Source: Prosthecobacter debontii
GTDB taxonomy: Bacteria > Verrucomicrobiota > Verrucomicrobiia > Verrucomicrobiales > Verrucomicrobiaceae
Length of the DNA stretch: 64,000 nt
Direction: 5' to 3'
Assembly (NCBI RefSeq): GCF_900167535.1
Contig: NZ_FUYE01000018.1
Coordinates: 62,001-126,000, forward strand
Of the stretch, positions 10,329-63,300 are shown piece after piece. The notes beneath the pieces are model-generated. The model was not told the origin of the DNA. It saw only the letters and a program-made list of their open reading frames with translations, and searched no databases. Numbering within the stretch: the stretch's first letter is position 1; each line of letters begins with the position of its first letter. The position numbers and the translations under genes were made by a program.

Positions 10329-10730
10329 ATGGCCAAAAAATCTCTTCCTCCACTTTCCGCAGCCGAGCAAGCGCTGATGGACATTCTCTGGAAACGCTCG
10401 CCTGTTGGCGTGCTCGACTTGCTGGAAGCAGTCAATGAGGGGCGTGCCGAACCTGTCACCCGCAACACGCTCCAAACTCAGCTCACCCGACTGGAAGCGA
10501 AGGGCTGGATTTCCCGTGATGACTCTAGCCGCAGCCATGTCTATGCCCCCGCCGTCCCCGAGCAGCGAGGCCGCAGCAGCGTGTTGAGGGAACTTAAACA
10601 GCGCTTCTTCGGCGGCAGTAATCTGGCGCTGGTCCGCTGCCTCGTCGAGAGTGAAGAGATCACCGAGGAAGAACTGGTGGAACTGCGCAAACTGGTCCGC
10701 AGTGGGACGGTCAGGAAAGGAGGCGAGTGA
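10329..10730 (+). CDS. BlaI/MecI/CopY family transcriptional repressor
   Basis: A 133-residue winged-helix repressor. The N-terminus KSLPPLSAAEQALMDILW is the classic BlaI first helix. The recognition helix and wing lie in TRNTLQTQLTRLEAKGWI and SRSHVYAP. The C-terminal helices (SEEITEEELVELRKL) form the usual dimerisation region. I choose ATG 10329 from family alignment. ATG 10317 or GTG 10308 would start inside or next to the operator. Its stop overlaps the start of the M56 peptidase gene by one base (TGATG), the normal BlaI-BlaR1 arrangement. The repressor is probably inactivated by proteolysis triggered by that partner. No beta-lactamase lies nearby, so antibiotic sensing should not be assumed. 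Confidence 0.9.
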   Translation: MAKKSLPPLSAAEQALMDILWKRSPVGVLDLLEAVNEGRAEPVTRNTLQTQLTRLEAKGWISRDDSSRSHVYAPAVPEQRGRSSVLRELKQRFFGGSNLALVRCLVESEEITEEELVELRKLVRSGTVRKGGE

Positions 10731-13138
10731 TGAGCCCAGAAAACGTCTTTTTCCTCAACTTTGGCCTGCACAGCCTGGCCTTTGGATTCCTTGGCTGGCT
10801 CATCTTGCGTTGCCTGATTCGCGATGCCTTGAGGCGCAGTGTCACCGCGATGATGGCCATCCTCTTTTCGGTGGGCGGGCCATGGCTGGTTTCGTCGCTG
10901 ACCCCCTGGGATGAAGGCAGTGGTACGCTTGCCTTAGCGACGCTTCATCAGACGCTGGACACGGACTGGCGCATCGTCATTCGGCCTGAGATAACACCAG
11001 CAGTCTCCCCTGACATGGCCATGCATCATGTATCAAAGTTTGTTTGGCGGGCTGACCGTTGGATGCCGGAGCTGAAATGGACTCTGTGGAGCGGCGTCGC
11101 CGCCCTGCTTTTGAGGCACCTGTGGCAGACAAGCAGGATCGTGGTATGGACCCGGGGTTTGAGAAAACCAGTCCAGGAAGAGCTCGAATCCATCCCCAAG
11201 GCGCTGCGCGGAAAGCCGCTGGCCGTTTTTCATCATGCAGGCACTCCCTGTGTGGTGGGCTGGTTCCGGCCATTGATTGCAGTGCCAGCCTCATCCTTCG
11301 GCACCTTGACGGCAAGGCAGTGGCACTGGCTGGTCCGCCATGAGGAGGAGCATCTGCGAGGGAGGGACACGCTGGTCTCCTGGCTCCACGAATGTGCGCG
11401 TGCTGTCCTGTGGTGGAACCCCTTCGTTCATGCGCTTATCGAGAGTCATGCGCGGTCCCGGGAAGAAATCTGTGATGCGGCTGCGGTGGGTGAGGCCGGA
11501 GAAAACAAAGATTATGCCGAATTTCTGCTCAGTTGGGTCCGGACCTCCCACCCAATGGCTGGCGTCATGCCGATGGCTCAATCACGGCCTGCACAGCGGC
11601 TGCGGGGACGGCTAAAGGCGCTTGTCGAAGCCCGCCCGGTGCGTCATCGGCTGGGTGTGAATTTCGTGCTCGCATGCACAGCAGGGGCCGTTGTTGGACC
11701 TCTGCTCATCGCCTCCGTTGGGCTGGTTGTTCCTTCAGCGTCAGTAGCCGCTCAGCCTATCAAATCAGCCAGCACTCCTGGTGAAAACAGTTCCTTGTTT
11801 ACCCGCACTTATACGGTCTCCCCGAATATCCTTTCTGCTCCATCCAATCCTGCGAACAGGGTGACTCCCAGCGAGTTTCTGGAAAGCAAAGGCGTCTCTT
11901 TTCCGGAAAATGCGATGGCCATTTTTCAGACCGACACTTCTCGCCTTGTGGTGACCAACACGCTCGCAAATCTGGAAAAGACCCGCCAGGTTCTCACCGA
12001 CGCTTCGGTGATCCAGCCTCAGGTCTATTTCGTTACTCGGTTCATCCAGGCAGACCGGTTTTTCGGGATTCACGGCGCAGTTTTGGATAGCCAGTCAGCC
12101 GCCGCTCTGATCGCAAATGTCAGTCAAAAGGCTGGCGTTGACTTGCTCGGTGTGCCCCGCATCACAACGAAAATGGGGCAGCAGGCCGTTGTCGAAGTTG
12201 GCCACGTTAATCCTGCCAATCCAGAGCAACGGGTGGGAATTCGCCAAGAACTGATGTCGTCCAAAGCCGATGATGGAAAGGTATTCATCGAGACAAAATA
12301 CTCCTTGGGGCTGGAGTCTGGGGAAGCGTTGATTCCCTCCAAATTTAGCCCTCCCAAGGACTGGTCCCGGGTCAATATGTACACCAGTCATGGCAAGGTT
12401 GAATTGGCCTCCGGGGAGACCTTGGTGCAGCACCTACAGGTCGGAGGGAAACAAATGACCCTCTTGATCTCGGCCATTGCCCTTCTGCCGGACGGCACTG
12501 AGGCCAGTCATTTTGATAGAGTCGCAAACGTCCTCTGGCCAGTTCAAGTGGGAAAAGACATCCCCTACCTGCCCGGAGCTGCTCCAACAGAGCCAAAGAC
12601 GGCTCCGAAGGCACCTAACAAAAAAGTCTTTTTATCCGTCGTTGTGGCAGACGTGCCGGGGGTCTCTCAACTGGCCGCCAATTTGAGTCTGGAAGGAAAA
12701 GACAAGGCCGAACTGGATCGTCTTTTGGGCGTTCTAGATCCCCATCGCATTGGACAGTTTTGGGTCACTGGAGTCTTGACTGACGCTCAGTTTAGCCTCG
12801 TGATGCGTGCCTTGGCGCAACAGCAGGGTGTTGCCGTAGTGGCCTTGCCAGCGAGTGTGGAAAATGGCAAAGAGGCCGTTTTCCAATTGCCTCAAAATCT
12901 GGGAGGCCAGTCGTTTGCCGTCACTCCCGGTGTCTGGGCTGATGGCTACTCCATTGATCTGAATGTCGTGCCTCCGAGTCTCGATCTTTCCTCGGAAAAA
13001 GCGGTTTCCTCAGCCGTGACGATTTGGTCAGGCCAGACACTCGTCCTTGGCGGCTACCTGACAGAGGTGAAGGACCAAGGTCGCTTAATCTTTGTTACGG
13101 CCACTCTTATCGAAGAAACCGGTAAAGCGACCAAGTAA
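10730..13138 (+). CDS. BlaR1-type M56 metalloprotease fused to secretin-like domains
   Basis: An 802-residue membrane protein. Residues 1-340 form a BlaR1/MecR1-like M56 peptidase. N-terminal membrane helices are followed by the zinc motif HEEEH at 204-208, a downstream SREEICDAA with the glutamate ligand near 245, and another membrane helix near 312-335. BlaR1 normally ends in a penicillin-binding sensor domain; here none is visible. Instead residues about 360-802 look like two copies of a secretin-type fold. The first has FLESKGVSFP, AMAIFQTDTSRLVVTN and QPQVYFVTRFIQ; the second ends SGQTLVLGGYLTE and LIFVTATLIEE, as in GspD/PilQ. A strong AAAGGAGG lies inside the end of the blaI gene. The signal sensed is unknown. 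Confidence 0.82.
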   Translation: MSPENVFFLNFGLHSLAFGFLGWLILRCLIRDALRRSVTAMMAILFSVGGPWLVSSLTPWDEGSGTLALATLHQTLDTDWRIVIRPEITPAVSPDMAMHHVSKFVWRADRWMPELKWTLWSGVAALLLRHLWQTSRIVVWTRGLRKPVQEELESIPKALRGKPLAVFHHAGTPCVVGWFRPLIAVPASSFGTLTARQWHWLVRHEEEHLRGRDTLVSWLHECARAVLWWNPFVHALIESHARSREEICDAAAVGEAGENKDYAEFLLSWVRTSHPMAGVMPMAQSRPAQRLRGRLKALVEARPVRHRLGVNFVLACTAGAVVGPLLIASVGLVVPSASVAAQPIKSASTPGENSSLFTRTYTVSPNILSAPSNPANRVTPSEFLESKGVSFPENAMAIFQTDTSRLVVTNTLANLEKTRQVLTDASVIQPQVYFVTRFIQADRFFGIHGAVLDSQSAAALIANVSQKAGVDLLGVPRITTKMGQQAVVEVGHVNPANPEQRVGIRQELMSSKADDGKVFIETKYSLGLESGEALIPSKFSPPKDWSRVNMYTSHGKVELASGETLVQHLQVGGKQMTLLISAIALLPDGTEASHFDRVANVLWPVQVGKDIPYLPGAAPTEPKTAPKAPNKKVFLSVVVADVPGVSQLAANLSLEGKDKAELDRLLGVLDPHRIGQFWVTGVLTDAQFSLVMRALAQQQGVAVVALPASVENGKEAVFQLPQNLGGQSFAVTPGVWADGYSIDLNVVPPSLDLSSEKAVSSAVTIWSGQTLVLGGYLTEVKDQGRLIFVTATLIEETGKATK

Positions 13139-13906: not shown

Positions 13907-14293
13907 ATGATTGTCATCGATGAAAGTCTCAGCGGTCAACGCCTCCATTCTTTTACCCTGGAATGTCTGGAGGAACGCATGTCGGTTCGAGAGATCATTC
14001 GGGCAAGAATTTGGCAGGAGGTGCAGGATTACAATTCCCAAGGTCTGCTTTCCAAATTCGTCGGTTTGATACAGCCGGTGGATGATGAAAAGCGTTTGAA
14101 TGGTGATGTTCGTCTCAAACCGAAACGGGTCGATTGGGAGCGGCAATATAACACGGCCCTTCGCGCCTTTGAAACCAATGGCTTTTTCATCCTCATCGGA
14201 GACCGCCAAGCTGCAGATTTGGATGAAGAGTTTTTGATCCAACCGGATACGGAAGTCAGTTTCGTGAAACTTGTGCCGTTGGTCGGAGGCTGA
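13907..14293 (+). CDS. Small protein ending in Gly-Gly, upstream of DUF4132 gene
   Basis: A soluble protein of about 128 residues (140 from a TTG at 13871 in the same frame). I do not recognise a named family. It begins MIVIDESLSGQRLHSFTLEC, with alternating strand-like residues, followed by SVREIIRARIWQEVQDYN. The tail FILIGDRQAADLDEEFLI then SFVKLVPLVGG ends exactly in Gly-Gly before the stop (GTC GGA GGC TGA). A small beta-rich protein with a C-terminal Gly-Gly resembles ubiquitin-like modifiers, but the fold is not proven. The stop is seven bases before the DUF4132 start, so the two are almost certainly translated together. Confidence 0.75.
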   Translation: MIVIDESLSGQRLHSFTLECLEERMSVREIIRARIWQEVQDYNSQGLLSKFVGLIQPVDDEKRLNGDVRLKPKRVDWERQYNTALRAFETNGFFILIGDRQAADLDEEFLIQPDTEVSFVKLVPLVGG

Positions 14294-14300
14294 GTCGCTT

Positions 14301-16922
14301 ATGAACTGGTTTCGAGGAATGATTCAAAAAGTCGTGGGGGGGGGAGCCTCCCCTGCATCGCCCCAGATCCCGCCTCCTGAAAACTCGGCTCCCAAATCTG
14401 CGAGTGAATACCATAAGGTGATCGTCGCTTACATGGATCAGGCGGAGCCGTTGCTCAAACATGAGTGGGAGCGTTTCAATCCCAAAACGTCTGCCATTGG
14501 TGAAGAAATTCTCAGTGGGACACCCGAAGCGCAAGCGGCGTTGGCCATGCCCTTGGTCGAGGAATTGCGTGCTCTCGACAGAACCATCAGCCTCTTGCAG
14601 AGTAAGCGACAGGATCGCCGGAGAAAGGTTGGACTGTATCTGTTGATTTCATTGTTAGGGCGTAGGCTGCCGATCCAAGAGGGAGTGGTTCTTTCTCTGT
14701 TAAATTGGATCGGTAAAGCGAGCTATGTTTCCCATTATGAATACCCAGTTACTGCGATGGTTCGCCTCGCCGAAGAGTGGGCATCCGCGGGCAAAATGAC
14801 GGACGACTTGAAAGCGGGATTCGTTCGGTTTCGCAATCGCCTGGCTCGCCATGCAGGTGCGGATGATCGTCGTCTATGTCAGCGTCTTGCCGCGGCCGTG
14901 AGTGAGGCTCCCGAGTTACCCTTAGTATCCGGTGAGCCTTGGGCCGATGCGGTCATTCATTTCTTGAACGACTGTTCCGATGAAACGAAGTTTTTTTGGA
15001 ATGAATTGTTAGGTCTGTGTGTCACAGCGACTTCGGCCAATGTGACTCAAAAATGGCTAAAAAAGGCGGAGGCTATTCTCGCAGACGCTCAGGGGCGGGA
15101 AGAGTTCAGCCGACGTATGTCAGCGTGGTTACCGCTGGTGGAGAAACCGCGCAGCGCAGCTTCCGGATATGCCGCGGTAGGCAGTTACGAGATTACGGAT
15201 CTGCATCAGGATATTCTTCGTGGCCTGACTTGGATCTGTGGCTTGATCGCCACGAAAGAGATGGCCCGCTTGATGACAGGCTTGGCGCTCACTTGCTACA
15301 AGAAGATCCCCGGTGTGGGGTCTCGCTCGGTGCGGGTGGGCAATGCTTGCGTTAGCGCCTTGGGGATGATGGGCACGACGGATGCGTTAGGGCAACTGGC
15401 CTTGATTAAAGTCAGGGTGAAATTTGGAGGTGCTCAGGCGGCGATTGATAAGGCGCTCACTCAATTGGCTGAAAGGTTGGAAGTACCTCGTGAAGAAGTG
15501 GAGGAGATCAGCGTGCCCGCCTATGGCATGACGGGAGTGGGTGAGTTGACTCAGCGGGTGGGAGATTTTACGGCCGAACTCAAGGTGGTGACGTCTCGCC
15601 AAACCGAGATGCTGTGGAGACGGGATGATGGAAAAGGTCAAAAGACTCTTCCTGCGGCAGTGAAGAGTGCGTGTGATGAAGAAGTGAAGGAACTGATGGC
15701 GGCGAAAAAGGACATCGAAAAGATGCTTCCTGCACAGTCCGAGCGTCTAGATAAGCTTTATCTACAGCGGAAAAGTTGGTCGGTGGGTGATTGGCGGGAG
15801 CGTTATCTCGATCATCCGCTGGTCGGAGTCCTGGCTAGGCGTCTGATTTGGAATTTTACTTCTGGAGAGATCACCACACCGGGCATCTGGCTCAAAGATA
15901 CCGTGGTCAACCGTCAAGGGCAGCCGTTAGACCTCAATGATGACGGTATCCTCGTGACCTTATGGCATCCGCTGAACCAGTCGGTGGACATTGTTTTGGG
16001 CTGGCGTGGATTCCTGGAGGAGTGGGAGATCGTGCAGCCGTTCAAACAAGCCCATCGGGAGGTGTATCTGCTGACTCCGGCGGAAGAGCAGACCCAGGTG
16101 TATTCCAATCGCTTTGCTGCCCACCTGCTTCGCCAGCATCAATTCAATGCCCTTTGTGCTGCGCGGGATTGGAAAAATAAAATCCGTCTTATGGTGGATG
16201 ATTTTTATCCTCCGGCTACCCGCAGGCTATCGTCGTGGGGCTTGCGTGCGGAATACTGGATCGAAGGGGCAGGCTCCAACTACGGAACGGATACGTTGGA
16301 AAGCGGGGCTTATCGTTATGTCGCGACGGATCAGGTGCGGTTTTATCGCGAGGATGCTATCACTGTTAACGCTCATGCAAGTGGTGGTGGCTACAGTAGC
16401 ACGAGTTTTGATGGAACTGCTCCTGAGCCCCTGCGACTGGCTGAAGTCGAGCCATTGGTCTTCTCGGAAATCATGAGGGACGTGGATCTCTTCGTCGGTG
16501 TCGCCAGTGTCGGTAATGATCCGGCGTGGTTGGATGGAGGGCGCGATGAGCAGCAGCGTGGCTACTGGCATGACTATGGTTTTGGCGAACTCAGCGCCTC
16601 CGCTCAAACAAGGCGTGTGCTTTTGGAGAAACTGGTTCCCCGTTTGAAGATCGCCTCTCAATGCTCGTTTGTGGACCGCTTCCTCGTGGTGCAGGGGAAA
16701 CGGCATCGTTACAAAATCCACCTTGGCAGCGGAAACATTCTCATCGCACCTTGGGACAAGTATCTCTGCATCGTGCCCGGCCAAGGGCAGGTGGATAAAG
16801 CCGAGGGAAAACTGTATCTGCCTTTCGAAGGAGACAGGGTCCTGAGCATTATTTTGAGCAAAGCGTTTTTACTCGCTGCGGATGACAAGATCACCGACCC
16901 AACGATTTTAAGCCAGATGTGA
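14301..16922 (+). CDS. DUF4132 (MolR/YehI-like) domain protein
   Basis: An 873-residue soluble protein. The C-terminal third carries the DUF4132 signature: RRLSSWGLRAEYWIEG, TDQVRFYR, then VEPLVFSEIMRDVDLFVGVA and GNDPAWLDGG. It closes with VDRFLVVQGKRHRYKIHLGS, then an NILIAPWDKYLCIVP segment. The N-terminal two thirds are mostly helical, with HEAT-like stretches, and have no WGR domain at the start that I can see. DUF4132 proteins (E. coli YehI/MolR) are poorly characterised; those in E. coli lie near MoxR/VWA genes, which are absent here. GGAGG about 11 bases upstream lies inside the end of the Gly-Gly gene, so the pair forms a two-gene unit. Confidence 0.85.
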   Translation: MNWFRGMIQKVVGGGASPASPQIPPPENSAPKSASEYHKVIVAYMDQAEPLLKHEWERFNPKTSAIGEEILSGTPEAQAALAMPLVEELRALDRTISLLQSKRQDRRRKVGLYLLISLLGRRLPIQEGVVLSLLNWIGKASYVSHYEYPVTAMVRLAEEWASAGKMTDDLKAGFVRFRNRLARHAGADDRRLCQRLAAAVSEAPELPLVSGEPWADAVIHFLNDCSDETKFFWNELLGLCVTATSANVTQKWLKKAEAILADAQGREEFSRRMSAWLPLVEKPRSAASGYAAVGSYEITDLHQDILRGLTWICGLIATKEMARLMTGLALTCYKKIPGVGSRSVRVGNACVSALGMMGTTDALGQLALIKVRVKFGGAQAAIDKALTQLAERLEVPREEVEEISVPAYGMTGVGELTQRVGDFTAELKVVTSRQTEMLWRRDDGKGQKTLPAAVKSACDEEVKELMAAKKDIEKMLPAQSERLDKLYLQRKSWSVGDWRERYLDHPLVGVLARRLIWNFTSGEITTPGIWLKDTVVNRQGQPLDLNDDGILVTLWHPLNQSVDIVLGWRGFLEEWEIVQPFKQAHREVYLLTPAEEQTQVYSNRFAAHLLRQHQFNALCAARDWKNKIRLMVDDFYPPATRRLSSWGLRAEYWIEGAGSNYGTDTLESGAYRYVATDQVRFYREDAITVNAHASGGGYSSTSFDGTAPEPLRLAEVEPLVFSEIMRDVDLFVGVASVGNDPAWLDGGRDEQQRGYWHDYGFGELSASAQTRRVLLEKLVPRLKIASQCSFVDRFLVVQGKRHRYKIHLGSGNILIAPWDKYLCIVPGQGQVDKAEGKLYLPFEGDRVLSIILSKAFLLAADDKITDPTILSQM

Positions 16923-60398: not shown

Positions 60399-63300
60399 AT
60401 GTCTATTAAGATCCTCGCTTGTTTTGTTTTGTCGTTAGCGACGACATTGTTTGCTGAGCCAGACAGTCTTGACATCGTAGTTAATATCAGTGGGGTTAAG
60501 GGAAAAGTCGCGTTAGCAGGCTCCGCTCTTAAAAATGGTAACTCATTGAATTTAAAAATCGGCCCAGAATATGATTTGGTGTTTGATGAAGCAGAAGATG
60601 GAGCCGTGTTGTGCAGCGTTTGTGCAGGCAAGGCGGACATCATGGTTAAGGAGACCGTTACGACCATAGGTCCAAATGGGCCCGAAGGGGACACGTCCGC
60701 AGAACCAAGAAATGTAGGTCCATCAGCCGGATTTTTCTCCATGGCCAAACCAGAGCCTACTGGAGGTGGCGGCGATCCAGATCCCGAGCCATCTGATCCT
60801 GGTGAAGTGTTCACCTTGGTGAAGAAGTCCTATAAAATCAGTTTTGCGAAACCCGCAGCGCAACCTGAGATGGCGAATTTATTAGCTCGGGGGAGTGCCC
60901 CCTCAATGCTTACCGCGTCTCAAGAGCCTTTTGTGTCTGATCGACCTCTCATTGGCAGTGGCACGAGTTGTTGTTCGTCAGGTCTTTCAACGTCTCCTTC
61001 GGTTTCGTCCGTTGCAGCAACGGCTCATCCTGAGGAAGTGTCGGCCCCTCGAGCCCACTTTGAATTGCCCTTAGGGGGCTATTTAGAAGAGGGTGAAAAG
61101 CACGCTATGCCTTTTGGCAGCTTAGTGTTTGATGCCAGCTTGCTGGAAAACCCCGATTTTTCGGAAGATTGGCAGACATTACTCTCTTTCCGAGGAGAGG
61201 CAGGTCAATCTCATGTCTCTCATTTCTTGTCGGATCCTGTGGGGGAATTTCATATTTACAAGACCCCGAATTATGTGTTCAAGGCGACGGAAGAAGATGA
61301 TATTATTTCGATCAAACAATACAGTGGCGAATTCTTCGATGAGTCATCGTTTGACGTGGTCGCTGAAGCTGAGCCACTTATTGCATATTACATCAAAAAA
61401 GTAGGATCGACTTTTGAATTCAAACAATTCAAAGGTAGCGATCTGAATCCAAGCATGACCCTTATTTATGAAGAAACGTTTGTGGCCAACACGGTTAGTA
61501 CGGTGAAGTGGACATGGACAGAAAGCGGGGTCAAACAGCAAGAGGTAAATTCGAGGTTTGTGAACACAAGCCCTGGCGGTAGCCCCAGTGGAGAGGTATT
61601 TGCAGATGCTCTCATCTCGGAGACAAAGGAGACTTACGAGTTCAAGACTGGGGGTATCGTAAAGCAATTGACGCGTTATCATCAAACTCAACATGAGGTT
61701 TTTAGATACCAATTGTCAGGGGACCGTTTCATCAAGCTCAACTATGAAATTTCGGGTGTTGGGCTCGCTCAGCGAAAGAATGAATATTGGTATCGAGCGA
61801 ACTCGGACTACATCGTTACTAAAACTTACCAGGGGTCTAGCCTTAATGAATTGGTAGGAACTCAAGTTAACCGGCCTACGGATGAGGTGATCGAACCTTG
61901 GCTCAGCACCGACGTTACTAGTTCTACAGGCGGGCGGATTCTGCGCAAAGACACTGGCGAGTTAGTTCATTTCACGCCAGGGGGAGCGCAGGATTATCAG
62001 CTTTATTGGCCTTCATCGGGTGATGAAAAGTCGTTATACACTTCAAGAAATGTCATGGATCCATGGGCCTCTTCATATGTCGCAGCAGATGGAACAGCTG
62101 CTCCCAATGGGGCTATCCGTGAAAGGGTCTATAAAATTAATATTTTGGGCCTTCCATCCAGCTGTAAGAAGCTCGGAATCAACTTTTATCACCCAGTCAT
62201 GCCGAGTGCTATTGGAGGGCATTATTCCATTGTTGGCACAGAGCCTTTGTCGCCTCCATATGGATCTCCCAATGATACGTCAATCCCTGGTGAACTAGCC
62301 GCGCAAATCAACTCCTTGGGTGCGGTGACTCAATACACGCTTGAGGAGCCTTTTACATCTGAAGACGAGACGTTGTATCCGGTTGAGGGCGGGCCTTATA
62401 CGACTGAAAGCGTTTTACATGATGTTAAAGGGGCTATTAACACAGATAGTTCAGGGCTTCCAATTTATGAAGGTTCCTTTAAACAGACTGGAAAGTCTTA
62501 CAGAGTAAAAAAAGTTAGCGGTCCATATGGTGTTGTGAGTGAAACCACCGAAGTTTGGGATGGCACTGAATGGCAAACGATGACTTTTAAGTACTACACA
62601 TATTCAAGTGCGGGTAAGCTGTTGTCCATTACTCAAGATGGCATTACCATTGAAAGCCGCGAATACCCAACAGATTTGAGCGAGACGGTGACTGATTCAA
62701 TGGGGGTTTCAACGACTCGCACGGAGAACACCGCAGGCAGATTACTGAGTGTGAAAAGAGTGGGCGCACCAGCGTCGACTTGGCCTGCTCAGTCAGACAT
62801 TCTGACCTCTTACTCGGAAACCTACAGTGCACCATCTAACGAGGTCACGACGATCCATCGTTCCGAGACGACATCTTCGGCAGGCTTGTCTCTGTCTCAA
62901 CATTCGGGTTCAGAAATCGGAGGAACAACGCTTTATGAAACGAATGAAGCCGGTATCAGAACCGATTACCTCTATGGACTCAACGGTTCCTTGCTCACAG
63001 AGACAGCAAGCCGAGCTTCAGGAGATCACACTTTGGTCACATCAAGATATTTCGATGGCCGGATACGTGAGCTCTCGGGCACAGGCCAAGTCAGAAAACG
63101 ATACTCATATGCGGTGACTGCTTCTGGAATCCAAGAAACTGAAGAGCTTCTGGATCCATCATCGACAGTGATAGCAACGAACACGCGGCTTCGGAGCGGA
63201 GATGGAGATCTACTCTCAGAAACGGTTGATGGTGTGACCACCACCTATACTTATGACGAGGCATGTCAGCTCGTTCGTAAGTCCGTCACAGGACAAGCGA

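Follow-up and report, generated by a model that had tools for sequence, protein, structure and literature searches.

Here we describe a two-gene unit of Prosthecobacter debontii, found in a stretch of 64,000 nucleotides (positions 62,001 to 126,000 of contig NZ_FUYE01000018.1; hereafter the window), in which a small protein ending in Gly-Gly is encoded directly before a large protein that carries the domains DUF4132 and DUF7737. Comparison of sequences supports the conclusion that this ubiquitin-like protein (Ubl) and the DUF4132 protein form a dedicated pair. It recurs in many distant bacteria and has the appearance of an undescribed system for protein tagging or sulfur relay. On balance, we lean towards the view that the Ubl is activated by an E1 enzyme and relayed to a cysteine of the DUF4132 protein in a system of two components, or of three in some Bacteroidota, in which conjugation is a proposal. 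This view is based on the pairing of the genes, the predicted Ubl-like fold, the conservation of the tail, the linkage of an E1 gene in relatives, and the joint loss of the tail and the partner cysteine in a sister clade.

The initial annotation of this DNA described a 128-residue protein ending in Gly-Gly after KLVPLV, whose stop codon lies seven bases before the start of a DUF4132 gene, and the coordinates of the open reading frames (ORFs) confirm both observations (Table 1). The DUF4132 assignment is also correct: the large protein matches PF13569 (E 8.5e-47, 159.8 bits against a gathering score of 27), and its C-terminal part matches PF24879 (DUF7737, E 8.4e-39), a domain not mentioned in the initial annotation. 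The small protein, which is present as a single copy in the genome, matched nothing in Pfam or PADLOC at E up to 1 and had one chance-level match in NCBIfam (E 0.14), and both the protein and its family gave chance-level matches only against the PDB sequences. PADLOC also reported nothing for the window pair.

When the small protein of the window was used alone as a query, it was absent from 55 other relatives, 34 of which belong to the same genus, and exact peptide patterns gave no match against genome contigs. As these single-sequence and exact-pattern searches were empty, a family alignment was needed. In a sample of Verrucomicrobiota, 6 of 387 genomes match the small protein at E 0.01, including the window's own genome and that of one congener (G236, 71% identity), which together with the 0 of 55 relatives indicates that the pair is patchy in distribution. 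In three other Verrucomicrobiota genomes, we found four strong relatives, each of which ends in Gly-Gly and is encoded directly before a DUF4132 gene. We then scanned genome contigs with an alignment of five members from which the last four residues had been removed to prevent the query from selecting for Gly-Gly; the family counts given here refer to the best 80 of the 92 relatives found with it. These 80 relatives are distributed over 11 phyla (41 in Bacteroidota, 19 in Planctomycetota, eight in Verrucomicrobiota, three each in Actinomycetota and Cyanobacteriota, and one in each of six others).

An exact C-terminal Gly-Gly is present in 79 of the 80 relatives, and the remaining one (L091) is masked, as its gene contains a stretch of N. 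Among 547 further ORFs in the same DNA that do not overlap and have at least 150 amino acids, only two share this end, and hence the tail is not due to chance. The claim of a dedicated pair is also supported, as a DUF4132 gene lies directly downstream of the Ubl gene in 74 of the 80 loci; it lies directly upstream in two (L059 and L069), and is non-adjacent in four (L062, on a contig of 3.3 kb, L051, L081 and L122). It should be noted that ORF starts were taken as the first possible ones, and that some negative gaps between the genes are therefore overstated. In loci L073 and L075, a single Ubl gene is followed by two tandem DUF4132 genes, and in L122 the Ubl gene is followed by an ORF of 236 residues (L122:6397-7107) whose start resembles, by eye, the N-terminus of DUF4132 partners, as if it were a truncated partner. 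Pfam matches of the relatives below threshold include ADD_ATRX for L050 (E 0.0028, under its cut-off) and others at E 0.075-0.14, among them the ubiquitin-fold family Sde2_N for L041. Outside cellular chromosomes, phages searched with the C-terminal half of the partner gave no match, viral contigs searched with the Ubl alignment gave no confirmed match, and the 30 plasmid records that match the partner never do so across >80% of its length.

The conservation of the tail might be an artefact of translation, if the two glycine codons served the following gene as its Shine-Dalgarno site and the likeness in fold were a coincidence. In the window, the string GGAGG does overlap the two codons, and a Shine-Dalgarno-like string covers them in 34 of the 79 GG-ended relatives. 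However, 26 relatives lack a DUF4132 start in the 25 bases that follow the Ubl gene, and 25 of them, all but the masked L091, end in Gly-Gly; such a string is present in only 5 of these 25, and all four glycine codons are in use among the relatives. As Gly-Gly is kept where no DUF4132 start follows, the Shine-Dalgarno-like string does not explain its conservation; we therefore reject a Shine-Dalgarno origin of the tail and regard this explanation as highly improbable.

The small protein is predicted to have a MoaD/ubiquitin-like beta-grasp fold, and the non-ubiquitin fold that would have spoken against the initial annotation was not seen. An AlphaFold2 model based on 62 family sequences has a mean predicted local distance difference test score (pLDDT) of 83.8 and a predicted template modeling score of 0.75, being weak in the tail and in the insert (approximately residues 45-76), and shows the topology strand-strand-helix-(insert)-helix-strands. 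In a Foldseek search against the PDB, the first two ranks are taken by MOCS2A, the human MoaD (5mpo, E 0.019-0.020, probability 0.97), and ubiquitin chains make up most of the 50 rows shown. VIA-align superimposed the model on MOCS2A (5mpo_B) with a Z of 8.1 and a root-mean-square deviation (rmsd) of 3.3 over 77 aligned residues, and on ubiquitin (6o83_B) with a Z of 7.0 and an rmsd of 2.0 over 70 residues; these Z values are modest, and most of the rows listed have one fold in common. A C-terminal Gly-Gly is also characteristic of the known MoaD, ThiS and SAMP proteins.

Across 66 aligned DUF4132 partners, one cysteine is invariant, which corresponds to C823 of the window protein and is part of the DUF7737 motif Y-x-IHLGSGN...YLCIV. 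Of the 19 DUF4132 matches in the Verrucomicrobiota sample, seven have an adjoining Ubl and DUF7737, and of the other 12, eleven are without DUF7737 by profile and one (L030) has a weak match, with the upstream DNA of L028 not being covered. When DUF7737 was searched on its own, independently of the Ubl, it was found in 9/296 genomes of Bacteroidota, 4/249 of Pseudomonadota, 6/246 of Actinomycetota, 11/179 of Planctomycetota, 1/89 of Myxococcota and 2/94 of Spirochaetota, where each of the first five counts includes one genome preselected for having the pair. In those five phyla, a Ubl accompanies 28 of the 30 DUF7737 genes examined; this count excludes fragments in G646, G794, G1249:C86 and G1297, five of the 30 are the preselected genomes, and two loci (L141 and L143) were already present in the family scan. 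For the structure of the partner, we modeled a read-through of the Ubl and DUF4132 protein of L050 (993 residues, 45 rows, pLDDT 83.7), in which the N-terminal half consists of helical repeats that match HEAT/ARM proteins. These repeats filled the fold search. The VIA-align list for the whole model contains no E1 or E2 fold, which is no evidence of absence. A long form of the partner also bears DUF5724 (one protein scanned).

The tail of the Ubl and the cysteine of the partner vary together. For this comparison, each DUF7737 protein was taken with the nearest same-strand Ubl of its locus, and three proteins unaligned at the cysteine column were dropped. The partner has the cysteine in 102 of 102 cases with a GG-tailed Ubl (98 distinct sequences; some loci are represented twice, in tandem or in pieces). 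In a sister clade, the Ubl ends in -G-x-x-W in 7/7 cases (LAGRMW, LSGRLW, LTGTYW, LSGAYW and three times LAGSYW), and the partner has A, N or S instead of the cysteine in all seven, which are distinct sequences. Variable tails, which the initial annotation had named as evidence against its proposal, are thus not seen in the family's own clade, the masked relative apart, and are seen in this sister clade. Of 18 columns that are invariant in 36 GG-linked partners, 15 are kept in all seven GxxW proteins and two in six of them, leaving C823 as the only one that is lost in all seven; among the columns conserved to at least 97%, A594 is also lost in the GxxW clade. Long-form partners that have a GG-tailed Ubl (four from Deinococcus and one from an actinobacterium) keep the cysteine, so that the length of the partner is not the cause of its loss. 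The loss of an otherwise invariant cysteine in the GxxW clade fits with the view that Gly-Gly matters chemically. This clade would be a derived version in which the complex has been kept and the chemistry lost, with the tree being unrooted and the direction not fixed. In one of its genomes, the order of the genes is reversed, with the Ubl gene (L175:4787-5203) following the DUF4132 gene at a distance of about 1.2 kb.

In 13 of the 41 Bacteroidota loci, a gene for a ThiF/MoeB-type E1 directly follows the DUF4132 gene, as seen by clustering the ORFs of the 80 loci, and a repeat with profiles returned the same 13. All E1-bearing loci are from Bacteroidota, their named families including Flavobacteriaceae, Sphingobacteriaceae, Chitinophagaceae and Flammeovirgaceae, and the gap between the DUF4132 stop and the E1 start is -4 to +3 bases. 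Taking into account that only 33 of the 41 loci have >750 bases after DUF4132, the fraction is 13/33. The linked E1s are 232-240 amino acids long, apart from a shortened one of 194 (L111). Both of the two that were scanned match PF00899 (that of L117 at E 4e-62), and the solved chains nearest to the L117 protein are E. coli ThiF, Uba4 and MoeB. In the 12 aligned linked E1s (L111 was left out as shortened), the motifs GAGGLG, NLxRQF and CDCxD, a Lys and the Cys of C...G are invariant, which we take to be the ATP site and the cysteine at the catalytic position. The E1 is the sole large recurrent neighbor cluster besides the pair itself; a cluster of 10 loci is an antisense frame over the Ubl gene, judging from the example shown, and the other clusters comprise 3-7 loci each. 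The window genome encodes three ThiF-family proteins elsewhere: L129, a MoeB-rhodanese fusion that scores best among them, L130, which is TcdA-like by eye, and L131. The N-terminal part of the last (L131:1363-2697) appears by eye to be JAB-like (HTH..S..D motif), and its Pfam match is to ThiF only.

Published data are available for one member of the family, for which, as for the other papers cited here, we refer to the parts of the texts that were available. Sequence comparison places DRA0165 (SEP068184) and DRA0166 of Deinococcus radiodurans (our locus L152), a DNA-damage-induced pair, in the Ubl-DUF4132 family: DRA0165 ends in LTALAGG and matches the family profile at E 3.9e-22, and DRA0166 carries the DUF7737 cysteine. 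The pair is under DdrO/IrrE control, with an operator reported at -83 of DRA0165, and DRA0166-V5 increases with mitomycin C in the wild type and not in an irrE mutant (PMC8533742). One exact copy of this operator sequence is present in our locus (L152:1052-1071), and it begins 82 bases ahead of the start of the Ubl gene. DRA0165 has been described as a cytoplasmic protein that binds Trx1, whose knock-out is more resistant to peroxide, and whose predicted fold is like that of MoaD and SAMP1; it has also been called Deinococcus-only and operator-less (PMC9650054), two statements with which our profile match and the exact operator copy disagree. As far as the available text goes, that paper does not mention the wide family, the E1 or the partner cysteine, and its main text never uses the word ubiquitin. 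The genes modA, thiD and thiS are located about 7-11 kb from the D. radiodurans pair.

Based on these data, the following mechanism can be proposed. The Ubl would be ready-made, since its gene ends at Gly-Gly and no processing would be needed. A ThiF/MoeB-type E1 would adenylate its C-terminal glycine, using the operon-encoded enzyme in the 13 Bacteroidota, and in the window genome an E1 that presumably acts in trans, for instance the MoeB-rhodanese protein L129. The activated Ubl would then be handed to Cys823 in the DUF7737 domain, probably as a thioester, and the DUF4132 protein would act as a carrier or transferase in an E2/E3-like role, which does not imply an E2-like fold. Its HEAT-like N-terminus may select or hold a client, a substrate to which the DUF4132 protein would deliver the Ubl; alternatively, the DUF4132 protein may itself be switched by the Ubl. 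Judging from the Deinococcus member, the likely use is a stress or DNA-damage response. The modifier role of the small protein, which was already suggested in the initial annotation, is in our analysis also an inference.

Several observations weigh against this mechanism. No E1 is seen beside the pair in 67 of the 80 loci, some of whose contigs end at or soon after DUF4132. The same holds for the window pair: as the initial annotation had stated, no E1 is nearby, the ThiF matches of the genome being only on contigs C3 and C15 and the window on C18, a statement that does not apply to the 13 Bacteroidota relatives. A recurrent JAB protease or E2 was not recognized in the 80 neighborhoods, judged by eye without profiling the neighbors. 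The Foldseek search gave no match at E <= 0.001, and the DUF7737 profile found none of the solved chains at E up to 10. In addition, the link between Ubl and cysteine is not complete, as neither of the two Spirochaetota DUF7737 genes has a Ubl beside it (L178 ends at a contig end just upstream), and the cysteine is kept without a detected Ubl nearby in L045, L160, L178 and L179. The co-loss of Gly-Gly and cysteine is confined to a single branch, that is, one independent pair without significance. Finally, 157 proteins that co-purified with DRA0165 are common to all four data sets obtained with N- and C-terminally tagged versions (PMC9650054), which does not favor covalent attachment through the C-terminus. 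With respect to the co-loss, a tree of 47 rows shows one change of the tail and two of the cysteine, so that the link consists of a single shared event and of L046, whose long branch is without the cysteine and whose locus has no adjoining Ubl; L172, with a gene that begins 70 bases away from the end of a contig, likewise has neither the cysteine nor a detected Ubl. With so few independent events, the link cannot reach statistical significance on the tree, and searches of Myxococcota and Spirochaetota for further loss events yielded none usable. The two Spirochaetota proteins (L178:2224-3549 and L179:2545-3864) have a length of about 440 residues.

Two other views are real rivals. The small protein may be a carrier of the MoaD/ThiS type that is adenylated and then thiocarboxylated, with the DUF4132 protein accepting the sulfur via C823 and using it in a task that involves a cofactor, tRNA or redox chemistry. 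The closest solved fold being that of MoaD (MOCS2A), the proximity of the linked E1 to ThiF, Uba4 and MoeB, and the rhodanese domain on the best-scoring ThiF-family protein of the window genome are all consistent with such a sulfur relay. We nevertheless consider it rather improbable: no moa, thi, cysteine-desulfurase or sulfur gene is recurrent in the 80 loci or the 13 E1 loci, as judged by eye with the neighbors unprofiled; the two linked E1s scanned have no rhodanese domain, for which the 232-240 residues of the full-length enzymes are also short; and the same two score below the NCBIfam cut-offs for ThiF (TIGR02356; 198 and 205, cut-off 275) and MoeB (TIGR02355; 155 and 175, cut-off 377).

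Alternatively, the Ubl may be a fixed, non-covalent partner or regulator of the DUF4132 protein, as has been proposed for TmoB and YukD (PMC1779556), and its tail would only dock in a pocket near C823. The close pairing of the genes agrees with this view, as do the DRA0165 interactors, for which a free C-terminus is not required (PMC9650054), and the sister clade, which retains the pair with a -GxxW tail and without the cysteine, and in which pairing thus outlives the chemistry. Docking poorly explains, however, why an E1 is encoded in the operon, or why an exact Gly-Gly and the cysteine are kept together, and we regard it as unlikely. Activation by an E1 and relay to the cysteine accordingly remains the view that we prefer.

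The pair can be compared with several known systems. Like MoaD/ThiS/SAMP with MoeB/ThiF/UbaA, it combines a beta-grasp fold and a C-terminal Gly-Gly with an E1 of the same superfamily; it differs in that the Ubl is larger (~130 amino acids, with a central insert) and paired with a DUF4132-DUF7737 protein, in that no cofactor genes were recognized alongside, and in that an E1 is unseen in most loci. Bacterial Ubl-E1 systems as such are already known (PMC1779556; for Bil and Bub, PMC11354881 and PMC13373217). Bil, Bub and the type II cyclic-oligonucleotide-based anti-phage signaling system (CBASS) share E1-driven ubiquitin-like chemistry, which is here proposed from genes, whereas our loci have no recurrent JAB or E2 by eye and their cysteine partner is a HEAT-like protein with DUF4132/DUF7737. 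Many Bub operons adjoin DNA-damage regulators (PMC13373217), which is paralleled by the DNA-damage induction of the D. radiodurans pair. Type 6d operons resemble our pair in that they encode a small standalone Ubl whose C-terminal Gly is conserved, adjacent to an E1 and a mostly helical uncharacterized protein, but they additionally encode a JAB protein and, separately, an E2-like protein (PMC1779556). A pair such as Ubl-DUF4132 is not among the operon types in the available text of Iyer, Burroughs and Aravind 2006 (PMC1779556). The DUF4132 domain is shared with the E. coli WGR-DUF4132 proteins; the E. coli control genome gave a PF13569 match and, unlike our partner, no match to PF24879 (DUF7737). 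We take these E. coli proteins to be MolR/YehI. In the open-licence literature, preprints excluded, we found no link of DUF4132 to a Ubl in the texts as far as they were available, and no mention of DUF7737 or DUF5724.

Table 1. Features of the Ubl-DUF4132 pair and their positions in the window
Feature	Position	Strand	Details
Small Ubl gene	13907..14293	+	ATG 13907, TGA 14291-14293; 128 aa; C-terminus KLVPLVGG; predicted beta-grasp core, ~30-residue central insert
C-terminal Gly-Gly codons (GGA GGC)	14285..14290	+	14285-14289 reads GGAGG, 11 bases before next ATG
Intergenic gap, Ubl stop to DUF4132 start	14294..14300	+	7 bases; from ORF coordinates
DUF4132 gene	14301..16922	+	ATG 14301; 873 aa; ORF list, Pfam; N-terminal HEAT/ARM-type helical repeats, inferred from model of homologue L050
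DUF4132 domain	15630..16172	+	Residues 444-624; invariant H556, Q579, Q583, R586, Y589, E595, S602, R604, W624; Pfam, alignment
DUF7737 domain	16602..16919	+	Residues 768-873; Pfam
Codon of invariant Cys823	16767..16769	+	Candidate acceptor of Ubl C-terminus; alignment of partners

Upstream of the pair, a BlaR1-type M56 peptidase and a weak secretin-like match (E 6e-4, under the curated cut-off) are combined in a single ORF of 803 residues (window 10727-13138).

In summary, hardly anything has been published on the widespread DUF4132 family, for which the Gly-Gly tail of its Ubl partner, the operon E1 in some relatives and the invariant cysteine now allow a defined biochemical hypothesis to be formulated. 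For one pair, published data on induction (DRA0166, PMC8533742) and on a knock-out (DRA0165, PMC9650054) exist, as far as the available texts go, in a tractable organism. In its broadest form, which we put forward tentatively as a possibility rather than an expectation, the pair would be a separate bacterial Ubl-conjugation architecture of at least 11 phyla, in which the HEAT-repeat DUF4132-DUF7737 protein would be a cysteine transferase (a combined E2/E3) unrelated to known E2s, and which would be part of the DNA-damage response of Deinococcus. If conjugation is true, this would add a new kind of acceptor protein to the bacterial Ubl systems, and possibly a post-translational arm to the radiation response.

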